Notes under the pieces: model-generated
What the model was told of the DNA's origin: nothing
The model's input: only the letters and a program-made list of their open reading frames with translations
Database searches by the model: none
In this document: positions 1,844 to 19,340 of the stretch, piece by piece
How positions within the stretch are numbered: position 1 is the first letter of the stretch
How the letters are laid out: each line of letters opens with the position of its first letter
Assembly (NCBI GenBank): GCA_947459875.1
Contig: CANHFG010000009.1
Span: forward strand, 1 to 46,215
Length of the DNA stretch: 46,215 nucleotides
Reading direction: 5' to 3'
DNA from: Ignavibacteria bacterium
GTDB lineage: Bacteria > Bacteroidota > Ignavibacteria > Kapaibacteriales > Kapaibacteriaceae
Position numbers and translations under genes: made by a program

Positions 1844-2070
1844 CTACGGCAGAACCATAAAAGTCTTTACACTCGTTGCACTTTGTAGAAAATACACGCC
1901 GGGGTTGACCTGCAAGACCCGGTTCTCATCGCCTTGAAAAAGCTCGCCGTGCGTTATAATCCGACCGCTGATGTCGTAAAGTGTGTATGGGCCTTGAAAG
2001 CCCGTCACTTGGATATTCCCATGACTGACGGCGGTGGGCCCGGAAGGTGTACTGCTGGGTGAATCGTTTT
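1844..2070 (-). repeat. Direct repeat, sorting-domain cassette copy A
   Basis: This stretch encodes the C-terminal sorting domain of the 1844-2725 gene and matches 3267-3493 in the same orientation. Bases 1844-1931 are identical to 3267-3354 (88 nt) and the rest differs at roughly ten positions. Such local identity between genes with unrelated bodies points to recent duplication or gene conversion of the domain. Confidence 0.85.
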
Positions 2071-2725
2071 TGACACTTACAAAAATAAAGCATGGACTCG
2101 TTAGATTTAGTTCCATTGCAGTAATACCATAAGGGTCGGTTCCTCTTTGAGAAGCCAGAACAGCCGCGGGATCTGTCGTGTCCGCGCCACGCGACAATGC
2201 CCACAACTGCTTCACCTTCCAGTAGTTGTAATACCGTGGATTCGGGATAGTGCAAGAAAACCTAGGAGGAGTCTTAGTTCCTCTGGGTGAAATAGTTCTA
2301 GCCACAACGTGATCAAAACCGACTTCATCCTGCAGTAACGCTACGAACGCACGCACTTGTGCGTCGAGCAGGTAGGCATTGGAACTATCAATTACACCTC
2401 TAGATTCGCAAAGTTCACGAAACTCATCCGCATAAGCGTCCTGTCCTGTGAAGGAAAGGGAAATGCGAAAATTCGTGAACAGCAGTCTCCACGGAAGATC
2501 GGGCCGAACCTCAGACCAAAACATGAACCTCTCACACGAATCCGGCGGAACAGTGCCTTCCTCAACAAAAAGAGAGTCAAGACACACCCAGCCATTTTCC
2601 AACTCCTCGGCATTGCATTTGACCGGCACCAGCTTCCGCTGCGCCAATGCGTGGCTGGGCAGGAGAATCGGCAGCAAGACGGTGCATAAGGTGGCCAGCA
2701 AGCGAATGGTACGTATGCAGTTCAT
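1844..2725 (-). CDS. Small exported T9SS cargo protein, unknown function
   Basis: 293 residues. The ATG at 2725 is preceded by AAAGGAGC, a good ribosome-binding site. Residues 1-28 form a signal peptide (hydrophobic core, then SHALAQ cleavage region). The middle (30-215) is unrecognised and contains several Cys. The last ~70 residues are a T9SS-type sorting domain (GPYTLYDISGRI, then NPGVYFLQSA, ending KTFMVLP). The nucleotide sequence of this domain is almost identical to that of the neighbouring gene at 3267-4032, while the N-terminal bodies differ. It is the only intact member of a three-gene tandem family here, and is probably exported to the surface or released. Confidence 0.8.
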   Translation of the reverse strand: MNCIRTIRLLATLCTVLLPILLPSHALAQRKLVPVKCNAEELENGWVCLDSLFVEEGTVPPDSCERFMFWSEVRPDLPWRLLFTNFRISLSFTGQDAYADEFRELCESRGVIDSSNAYLLDAQVRAFVALLQDEVGFDHVVARTISPRGTKTPPRFSCTIPNPRYYNYWKVKQLWALSRGADTTDPAAVLASQRGTDPYGITAMELNLTSPCFIFVSVKNDSPSSTPSGPTAVSHGNIQVTGFQGPYTLYDISGRIITHGELFQGDENRVLQVNPGVYFLQSATSVKTFMVLP

Positions 2726-2775: not shown

Positions 2776-3243
2776 TCATCGAACGACAATTATCAGTACC
2801 GAGCAGGTAGCGGTTTGTGGGTTGTACACGCGAAGCGAAAATATACCCGGTGTGACGGTCTGCAGGTGCGTAAAAAGCTCTGGCACGTTCGACGCGACCC
2901 GTGCCTGCCCTGTTACAGCGTGTACCTCATAGGTGGCTTCTGCAGGGGTGCCGTTGCAGGCCATGTGTATCTTACGACCGAGAACATCGACGGTGGCCGT
3001 GGCCTGCTCGTAGACGTATGTAGCCGTGCTCATTGGCACGTATGCACTGCCAGCAGTTGATTCAGAGTCTTCTAGCCTGCGCTTTCCAAACACCGACTCC
3101 CCATCAATGCTGAAAGATACACATGTCGGCGTTTCGTTTTCGATGCCGCACACTTGGTTATACCCCTGGCTGACGTTCCACGGATTACCGTCGATGGCTA
3201 CGTTGGTACCTTGTTCTTCACGAGAGAGCACCGCATCGGGCAC
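2776..3243 (-). pseudogene. Truncated third paralogue of the small T9SS cargo family
   Basis: An open frame of 155 codons starting at a GTG (3243) that has no ribosome-binding site and no signal peptide. The frame stays open upstream into the sorting-domain cassette of the preceding gene, out of phase with it. Residues around ETPTCVSFSIDGESVFGKRR align with SPCFIFVSVKNDS of the 1844 gene, and the end (TVDVLGRKI, then TPGIFSLRVYN) resembles a T9SS sorting domain. It therefore looks like the 3' half of a third paralogue whose N-terminal half was lost, perhaps when the 3267 cassette arrived. Expression as a separate protein is unlikely but not excluded. Confidence 0.55.
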
Positions 3244-3266: not shown

Positions 3267-3493
3267 CTACGGCAGAACCATAAAAGTCTTTACACTCGTT
3301 GCACTTTGTAGAAAATACACGCCGGGGTTGACCTGCAAGACCCGGTTCTCATCGACTTGAAAAAGCTCGCCGTGCGTTACAATCCGGCCGCTGATGTCGT
3401 AGAGTGTGTATGGGCCGTGAAAGCCTGTCACTTGGATATTCCCATGACTGACGGCGGTGGGTCTGGAAGGTGCACTGCTGAATGAGTCGTTAT
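3267..3493 (-). repeat. Direct repeat, sorting-domain cassette copy B
   Basis: Second copy of the cassette at 1844-2070, same orientation, 88 identical bases at the 3' end (3267-3354), then scattered substitutions, about 95% identical by eye. It encodes the sorting domain that is now out of frame with its body. Confidence 0.85.
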
Positions 3494-4032
3494 CGACGCT
3501 TACCGGAATAAGGCAGGCAGGCAGGCACGCCCTCGAACGAAAACTGTGGGTACTTGTAGATGCCTTTATCTTTGAACGTTGCTTCGGCGACGGTATATTT
3601 TACGGGTTCGTCGAAGATAACTTTGTAATACAATCTTGGATTACGTAAAAAACGCATCGAACCGCGTGAGACAAGCCGAAATCTCCCCAACTTGCCCATG
3701 GCATCCTGAAGGCGACTGCGAACGCTATCGTCGAAAAACTCCCATGAACCCACGTCAATGGTATCCACCTTGCGTTCACGGAATCGATCAACGTCGGCCA
3801 CCGTTGATGCATGACTCATGAACCAACTATCTGTGGAGTATATCTCGCTGTTGTCTACAAGTGTTCCAGGCTTAACTTCAAGAGTATCGTCGATATACAA
3901 GGGCCCGGGGCGGCATTGTACTCCGATTGAATCGCCCCATTTACCGTAGTCAAGAAGTTTCAATCTCGGCTTTTGCGCAGTCGCTTGCATGGTACATGCA
4001 TGTACAAGCAGAAATCCTGCAACGGCAAACAC
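3267..4032 (-). CDS. Exported T9SS cargo gene, frame broken at a (GCCT)4 tract before the sorting domain
   Basis: Read from a GTG at 4032, the body is 180 residues. It begins with a hydrophobic signal-like segment (FAVAGFLLVHACTMQATAQ) and ends PACLPYSGKRR at a stop just inside the tetranucleotide tract at 3511-3526. In the alternative frame the tract continues into PACLIPVSVDNDS and a complete T9SS sorting domain ending KTFMVLP at 3267, matching SPCFIFVSVKNDS of the paralogue residue for residue. Removing one 4-nt unit would fuse body and sorting domain exactly. As sequenced, the product would be exported to the periplasm without its T9SS signal. The start is uncertain: a second tract (C8) lies just upstream, and a GTG at 4090 with AGAGG before it would read through if that tract had 7 C. 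Confidence 0.75.
3511..3526 (-). repeat. Tetranucleotide tract (AGGC)4, minus strand (GCCT)4
   Basis: Four perfect tandem copies inside the coding sequence, exactly at the junction between cargo body and T9SS sorting domain. Four copies put the sorting domain out of frame; three would put it in frame; five also fail. This is the arrangement expected for slipped-strand frame switching. Confidence 0.85.
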
Positions 4033-4072: not shown

Positions 4073-4080
4073 GGGGGGGG
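4073..4080 (-). repeat. Homopolymer tract, C8 on the coding (minus) strand
   Basis: Eight C on the minus strand, about 40 nt upstream of the GTG at 4032. If translation starts at the GTG at 4090 (AGAGG six bases upstream), eight C lead to an early TGA, whereas seven C would join the frame of the downstream cargo gene and give a signal peptide with Arg residues before the hydrophobic core. Confidence 0.6.
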
Positions 4081-4280
4081 TAGTAGTCACGCGATACCTC
4101 TATTTGCTTACAGTGAACTTTGACAGTTGGTATGACAATCTCACGACGCCAGCAAGTTTCATTTCGTCAATATATGCCAATCCTATTGTGGTGTCGTCGC
4201 GCTGCGCCGCGTCTTTCCGAAAAGCGTAGCGACCAACGCATGTTCCCTGGCAGACTCAGCGCGCGATACAGGCCTGCCCA

Positions 4281-4308
4281 GAGCGAGGCGGGGGGTCTCG
4301 CCCCTACA
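4281..4308 (-). repeat. Variant copy of the GGGCGAGAC hairpin family
   Basis: On the minus strand TGTAGGGGCGAGAC (4308-4295) is identical to 1807-1820, then diverges to CCCCCCGCCTCGC, leaving an imperfect stem (GCGAG/CTCGC). The TAG stop codon of the 4304-5014 gene lies inside the repeat, so it sits immediately at the gene's 3' end and may protect or terminate the transcript. Confidence 0.55.
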
Positions 4309-5014
4309 TAAACGAACTCTGTGCTCCGGGACGTTCGTCGTCGTCATACGACGCGGCCATCGTCCCGGATGTCGTATATGCCATACGTCGACGGCGATTG
4401 CGCAGCCAGGTAAAGAGGATGAAGGCGATGCCTCCAACCACAAGCAGCGTGATGATCAGCGTGCCCCACTGAAATGTTGGCGGATAGACGCCAACCGACC
4501 CATCGGGATTGGCATGCGTGTATGGACGCGAAAAATAGAAGGCCGGGTGGAAGGGCATCGACCAGTACCAGGGAATACTGCCCATCATGTATCCCATCAT
4601 GAACCCATCTCCCATGCCGCCGTAGCGATTCACAACGTAGTTCGTTGATGTTCCGGACTGACCCCGGAAGCTCTGGCGCTCGGTAGCACGCGGTGCGCCG
4701 TAGCGCCCGGTATAGTCGGCCGGACGGTTCATGCGGCTGCCTCCAAACGCGTTACGCGACGTCGGGGCGTTGCCGAAACGGCCTGTCGGCGCGTTCGAAC
4801 CTGGTGCGTTGCGTGAAGGGGGCGGAGCCTGCCGCGTGCGAGATCCGCCGAAGGAGCGACCGCTGCTTGGACTGCGGAAGCTGCGGCCGTATCCGCCGCC
4901 GCGGCTTCCGCCGAACGAACCGCCACCGCGCCGCTGCGCAAGAGCGTCAGTCGGGATGACCCAGGCAAGCAGAGCAAGCACAAGCGTCGAGAGAACAAGA
5001 AAACGTTTCATCAT
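4304..5014 (-). CDS. Gly/Ser/Arg-rich membrane protein with signal peptide and one C-terminal membrane segment
   Basis: 236 residues. A signal peptide (1-26, ending DALAQ) is followed by a low-complexity region rich in Gly, Arg, Ser and Pro (27-100), a Met/Gly/aromatic stretch (GMGDGFMMGYMMGSIPWYW), a strong transmembrane helix (about 185-205, LIITLLVVGGIAFILF) with an RNRRRR cytoplasmic anchor, and an acidic tail. The ATG overlaps the stop of the upstream gene (TAATG) behind GGAG, so the two are probably translationally coupled. A 3' fragment of the same gene lies at 1519-1762. No specific function can be assigned. Confidence 0.75.
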   Translation of the reverse strand: MMKRFLVLSTLVLALLAWVIPTDALAQRRGGGSFGGSRGGGYGRSFRSPSSGRSFGGSRTRQAPPPSRNAPGSNAPTGRFGNAPTSRNAFGGSRMNRPADYTGRYGAPRATERQSFRGQSGTSTNYVVNRYGGMGDGFMMGYMMGSIPWYWSMPFHPAFYFSRPYTHANPDGSVGVYPPTFQWGTLIITLLVVGGIAFILFTWLRNRRRRMAYTTSGTMAASYDDDERPGAQSSFM

Positions 5015-15185: not shown

Positions 15186-15238
15186 TCAGGTGCGGGGTTT
15201 GGGGTTCGAGGCTTGAGGTGTGGGGTGTGAGATCTGAA
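15186..15238 (+). repeat. Degenerate heptamer array, G-rich on the plus strand
   Basis: After GTCAGG come six consecutive 7-nt units (TGCGGGG, TTTGGGG, TTCGAGG, CTTGAGG, TGTGGGG, TGTGAGA) of consensus YNYGRGG. It lies between the SRPBCC gene and uppP, within the leader of uppP. Related arrays in inverted orientation are at 15721-15750 and 19292-19340. Confidence 0.75.
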
Positions 15239-15720: not shown

Positions 15721-15750
15721 CGCCTCACACCTCAAACCTCAAACCTGTCA
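15721..15750 (-). repeat. Degenerate heptamer array, G-rich on the minus strand
   Basis: On the minus strand TGACAGG is followed by TTTGAGG, TTTGAGG and TGTGAGG. Same unit type as 15186-15238 and 19292-19340, and the TGACAGG edge is shared with the latter. It lies 26 bp after the stop of the T9SS propeller gene. Confidence 0.7.
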
Positions 15751-19230: not shown

Positions 19231-19296
19231 TGTCATCCCCGCGAAAGCGGGGATCCATGCGTGTGAAGATGGACTCCCGCGTTCGCGACAATGACA
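19231..19296. repeat. Palindromic intergenic element with TGTCAT/ATGACA ends
   Basis: 66-bp unit with inverted ends TGTCAT and ATGACA. Inside, CCCCGCGAAAGCGGGG forms a stem at the left, and ACTCCCGCGTTCGCG forms the degenerate right half. Reverse translation gives the WIPAFAGMT-like phrases often seen as false ORFs in genomes carrying this widespread REP/MITE-type repeat family. No transposase is present here, so if mobile it would need help in trans. Confidence 0.7.
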
Positions 19297-19340
19297 CACC
19301 TCGCACCCCACACCCCACACCTCAAACCCCAAACCTGTCA
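19292..19340 (-). repeat. Degenerate heptamer array, seven units, G-rich on the minus strand
   Basis: Exactly seven 7-nt units; on the minus strand TGACAGG, TTTGGGG, TTTGAGG, TGTGGGG, TGTGGGG, TGCGAGG, TGTGTCA. The ends TGACA/TGTCA are inverted. The array overlaps the TGA stop of polA, so it forms the start of the polA 3' untranslated region, and its other end overlaps the palindromic element at 19231-19296. Confidence 0.8.

Follow-up and report, generated by a model that had tools for sequence, protein, structure and literature searches.

The window which we analysed, a stretch of 46,215 nucleotides, comes from a genome of an uncultured member of the genus Candidatus Kapaibacterium, and the named relatives of one of its genes, gene X, are from Kapaibacterium and Ignavibacteria assemblies. 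Adjacent to gene X lies gene B, which runs on the minus strand from 4090 to 3267 and consists of a signal peptide, a cargo body for which no Pfam family was matched, a linker and a T9SS type A sorting tail; beyond it are a shorter open frame, C, and the intact gene A (Table 1). The tail of gene B (3267-3431) exceeds the cut-off of TIGR04183 (25.8 bits against 23) and stays under that of Pfam PF18962. In this it resembles the tail of a T9SS type A cargo, and in the intact homologues of gene B a single open frame covers signal peptide, body and tail in this order. In the assembled gene B, however, there are two frameshifts, each at a repeat (a C8 run and a GCCT tract), and the tail is out of frame with both the body and the signal peptide, as the initial annotation had recognised for the body. 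The genome has around 80 T9SS tails and, as part of the T9SS machinery, a full-length SprA (an open frame of 2278 aa, 907 bits with neighbouring segments).

Table 1. Features of gene B and its surroundings (window coordinates), and C/G tracts near the starts of other secreted-protein genes (contig or genome given as position).
Feature	Position	Strand	Basis	Frame of assembled tract
Probable start codon GTG of gene B, AGAGG 6 nt upstream	4088..4090	-	SD-like motif, frame	
C8 run between start codon and signal peptide of gene B	4073..4080	-	homopolymer search, slip states	
Gene B body frame: signal peptide end and cargo body, ~170 aa	3493..4032	-	open frame, homology	
(GCCT)4 tract, junction of cargo body and sorting tail	3511..3526	-	sequence, repeat search, slip states	
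TAA stop ending the body frame, assembled 4-unit allele	3490..3492	-	translation	
Gene B linker and T9SS type A sorting tail, other frame	3267..3515	-	profile match, nucleotide alignment	
Open frame C, remnant like the C-terminal part of an A-type cargo	2776..3243	-	alignment; tail assigned by eye	
Gene A, intact 293-aa secreted protein, tail near-identical to that of B	1844..2725	-	open frame, alignment	
X', apparently displaced original 3' end of gene X, left edge of B-C-A segment	1519..1716	-	alignment	
Gene X, right edge of the putatively inserted segment	4304..5014	-	alignment	
G13 right after signal peptide MKRFITSVALLVCSLLMAGSYVQVVAQPNTA, gene 18202 to ~18930	C9:18827-18839	-		out of frame; in frame at 12 or 15
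G12 in a relative of the C9:18827 gene	contig C143			out of frame; in frame at 10 or 13
C11	C58:13266-13276			out of frame; in frame at 12
C12 in a paralogue of the C58 gene	C89:211-222			in frame
G12	sister genome G012			out of frame; in frame at 10 or 13
G16	sister genome G014			out of frame; in frame at 15

The (GCCT)4 tract between body and tail is present on the minus strand as initially reported, and as a period-4 run it is 17 nt long (3511-3527). The tract occurs once in the whole 2.4 Mb genome, and the run is the longest of its period within the 1.65 of 2.40 Mb which our repeat census covered, where 62 runs were 11 nt long, 9 were 12, 5 were 13, 3 were 14, one was 15 and one was 17; the longest run in five simulations under an order-4 Markov model had 15 nt. 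It is the fourth unit alone that is unusual. The three-unit version, at 13 nt, is ordinary, with 10 runs of at least 13 nt observed and about 5 expected. The run encodes VPACL around a conserved cysteine in the last strand of the body. According to the computed slip states, three units fuse body and tail into one frame, which upholds what had been claimed for this tract and is the layout seen in the relatives of gene B in another genome, G017. The four units of the assembly give the C-terminus ...ACLPYSGKRR and five give ...ACLPALFR; by this computation, a length change of a repeat near the 3' end of gene B swaps its C-terminus. The assembled body ends ...VPACLPYSGKRR, and the stop codon, which had been placed inside the tract, in fact lies 18 nt past it. 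With four units the tract falls short of the five which phasome surveys use as their tetranucleotide cut-off (PMC6321876, PMC5953494). Could repeats at such junctions be in general use? We checked 36 tails and found no similar tract at the 35 others; with no enrichment among these tails, we rejected a general use.

Homologues of the body were found in G017 only, as three proteins which are 35-42% identical to it. All three are intact, with signal peptide, body, cysteine, linker and tail, and none of them has a repeat at the junction or at the 5' position. Gene B was not found in G011, G012, G013 or viral contigs, and a scan of the genome collection with its body gave no match. The cysteine at the body end, which is encoded within the GCCT run, is invariant among the aligned body sequences, and when one of the G017 proteins was modelled with AlphaFold (six sequences, mean pLDDT 72) this residue came to lie at the last body strand, with a disordered linker and then a separate beta tail domain beyond it. 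A structure search with the model of the G017 homologue returned nothing at E < 0.001; the C-terminal domain of RgpB appeared at E 0.05 over 81 columns, a weak support which concerns the tail only. Because the G017 proteins and the modelled succession of body, linker and tail agree, the joined reading is the normal layout of this family and the four-unit allele is probably derived.

The other frameshift of gene B lies at its beginning. From its frame and the SD-like motif upstream we infer that the GTG at 4090 is the probable start codon; it is the sole well-placed one, and SD-like 4-mers precede 24% of the long frames here as against 7% of random positions. Read from this GTG with the C8 run as assembled, translation would stop after 10 codons, and a run of C7 or C10 is computed to give VTTTPPPERADCSRGARCVVFAVAGFLLVHACTMQATAQ, which could plausibly serve as a signal peptide and shares the frame of the body. 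The body frame itself offers no good start and, ahead of the signal peptide, hits a stop. There is only an internal GTG at 4032, which could bypass the C tract at the price of a poor signal peptide. Gene B thus has the layout of a 5' contingency locus, in which a homopolymer in the first codons sets the frame of the signal peptide; its C8 run is short, over the homopolymer cut-off used for Campylobacter (7) and under the one used for Neisseria (9) (PMC6321876, PMC5953494). Since the gene would be off at C8 when read from GTG 4090, the assembled gene B should yield neither a tailed nor a tailless secreted product. This bears on the claim that slippage at the junction toggles secretion without silencing the protein. 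The claim fails for the assembled allele, in which gene B is already out of frame at C8, and because start and signal peptide are separated there, a toggle at the junction would be relevant only in cells with an in-frame C tract.

Is gene B alone in having such a run at its start? A whole-genome search found G/C runs of at least 8 in 13 places, of at least 10 in 6 and of at least 12 in 4; in simulation, runs of 8 were more numerous than observed, yet the maximum was 11. We took these homopolymer counts from the whole-genome search, the census sample being enriched for contigs with known G/C tracts. Of the six long runs, four separate the start or the signal peptide from the mature frame in genes for secreted proteins, and two sister genomes have tracts in the same position. 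The tracts at these six loci are 11 to 16 long, and all except the one on C89 are out of frame, so that the assembled states are mostly off, where one third in phase would be expected of random frames. As C/G tracts occupy the same position in four other genes and in two sister genomes, on/off phase variation of secreted proteins at the 5' end is likely in this genus. The C9:18827 gene and its C143 relative are each followed directly by a T9SS cargo gene, and in the C58 and C89 genes, which both reach contig ends, the tract stands between the ATG and a nearly identical signal peptide. Sister genomes G017 and G013 also have C/G runs near the starts of secreted-looking genes, though less clear than those of G012 and G014 (range 12-16); poly-G at contig ends (G016, G020) and very long poly-G in G011 were excluded as evidence, since they may be sequencing artefacts. 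A further C12 run (C75:2277-2288) is intergenic, just upstream of a gene for a 737-aa protein resembling a TonB-dependent receptor, and could act on promoter spacing. Arrays with units of 7 or 8 bases were counted 103 times in 1.65 Mb and not once in simulation, mostly outside long open frames; examples in the window are at 15194-15226, 15723-15746 and 19295-19335.

The surroundings of gene B suggest how it came to be here. Gene X and its convergent neighbour at 1-1500 directly adjoin each other in G012 and G013, whereas here they are separated by 2.8 kb which contain B, C and A. The 3' end of gene X is replaced, and its original end is found 2.8 kb away beside that neighbour, as would result if recombination within gene X had brought in DNA. 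In G011, which is about 94% identical at the nucleotide level nearby, has X and its neighbours and is 89% complete as an assembly, nothing matched A or B, and the contig breaks there. A GC-rich short sequence of the AGGGGCGAGACGCAGTCTCGCCC type lies at about 1807-1838 and is matched many times in G011, G012 and G013, frequently as tandem copies; similar sequence occurs near the other edge of the segment, at 4270-4310. Gene A had been described as matching the joined gene B residue for residue. The close match is confined to the tail, a 249-nt copy which is 92% identical and whose homology ends inside the tract; the linkers differ (CLIPVSVDNDS vs CFIFVSVKNDS) and the bodies gave no significant alignment, so that we rejected the body of gene B as a close paralogue of that of gene A. 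The two tails have a dN/dS of about 0.5; a control frame gives the same ratio, and the value is uninformative on constraint. Open frame C has a tail-like end (PTCVSFSIDG...) and no signal peptide, and looks like a third, truncated cargo. Removal of the 249-nt copy would preserve the frame; we nevertheless rejected C as the original tail of B displaced by an insertion, since the body of B ends in a PxC of its own. Taken as a whole, the B-C-A segment has the look of a recent, unstable insertion, and this would fit both decay and diversification.

How are the two frameshifts of gene B to be read? We lean somewhat towards a Sec-exported T9SS cargo gene which was frameshifted at two simple repeats and is now either switched off or decaying. 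The C run between start codon and signal peptide would then be the layout of a translational on/off switch, with the gene off at C8, and a (GCCT)3 coding for VPACL would have gained one unit, by which the tail became detached. The change at the junction would go back to one slippage event at a time when the gene was silent, be it phase-off or decaying, and because of this silence the extra GCCT unit would not have been selected against. It may instead be that gene B is a two-stage switch, in which the C tract turns the gene on and off and the GCCT tract decides between a tailed form, at the surface or released, and a tailless one in the periplasm. We regard this as unlikely, and as quite unlikely the specific case in which T9SS sorting varies by phase once a cell has an in-frame C tract, with off, periplasmic and surface states set by the two tracts. 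Both lesions are at repeats and nothing else in the gene is broken, a state which also fits a functional double switch; moreover, no longer period-4 run was found than that at the junction, which stands at a domain boundary, 5' switching looks real in the genus, and in P. gingivalis the T9SS cargo RgpB accumulates in the periplasm when its tail is damaged (PMC11285876). On the other hand, four units are under the usual tetranucleotide cut-offs (PMC6321876, PMC5953494), the tract is absent from the homologues and from the other tails checked, and the assembled allele, off at its start, would make neither form. One slippage event in a gene that was silent or in decay therefore seems likelier to us than an evolved sorting switch. 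The latter would require an expressed body, a tract that slips frequently and a population with both states, and we rank it lower since the body should not be expressed in this allele from its probable start and four units make frequent slippage doubtful.

That gene B is a plain pseudogene, its two slippage shifts being without meaningful reversion and the inserted segment around it being in decay, is not very likely either. It would be in keeping with the truncated cargo remnant C and the fragment X' in the same segment, with the lack of A and B in the near relative G011, and with the comparison of the A and B tails, which gave no clear sign of constraint. However, the 5' lesion is of the same place and kind as those in other secreted-protein genes, and we found no stop or frameshift in the body or the tail of gene B outside the two slippage-prone tracts, both being otherwise fully open. 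The initial annotation had named other disabling mutations, together with one tract length in all reads of several samples, as the mark of a simple pseudogene; there is indeed a second frameshift, which it did not mention, but it is the one at C8 near the start, itself at a repeat. That the contig combines allele states which are found in no single cell, through misassembly or a mixture of strains, is highly improbable: the genome is a metagenome-assembled draft of 150 contigs and mixed populations differ at repeat lengths, but at 8 and 17 nt the runs are short by the measure of read-based assembly, and the genome has the tract only once. Finally, slippage of the polymerase or the ribosome at C8 and the GCCT run might bring the frames together during expression. 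A homopolymer of eight C is long enough to permit some polymerase slippage, but four-base repeats are not known to act as slippage signals, and this explanation is the least credible of all.

The kind of event to which we ascribe the junction is already known. Judging from the citation of Janulczyk 2010 in PMC5320596, C-terminal cell-wall motifs of Streptococcus agalactiae are lost and gained through repeats, so that a C-terminal surface anchor is lost. The likeness to gene B, as far as that citation goes, is that a repeat near the 3' end sets the frame of a C-terminus which targets the protein to the surface; the anchor in S. agalactiae is, however, that of a Gram-positive cell wall and its variation was reported, whereas gene B has a T9SS tail and is known from one sequence. 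C-terminal phase variation by repeats has also been described in Helicobacter canadensis (PMC2823697) and Neisseria gonorrhoeae (PMC5320596), where a repeat late in the coding sequence changes the C-terminus and leaves upstream translation unaffected. In these cases the length variation was seen in reads or strains and no secretion tail is involved, and the tracts of H. canadensis, unlike that of gene B, are homopolymers. The 5' loci have their counterpart in the poly-G/C phasomes of Neisseria and Campylobacter (PMC5953494, PMC6321876), in which an early C/G run likewise sets the frame of signal peptide and mature protein and related genes include both on and off states, as C89 (on) and C58 (off) do here, with the difference that the Kapabacteria tracts are known from assembled sequences.

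In agreement with the initial annotation, we found no described case of phase-variable T9SS sorting in the open-access literature, to which our search was largely confined. If the junction tract also varies, gene B would, to judge from this search, be the first instance in the T9SS of surface delivery governed by a repeat. A more general caution is that an out-of-frame sorting tail should be judged jointly with the state of the gene start. If the 5' tracts vary, Kapabacteria would diversify their secreted proteins by means of contingency loci, a form of phase variation for which we found no earlier report from this group in the open-access literature.
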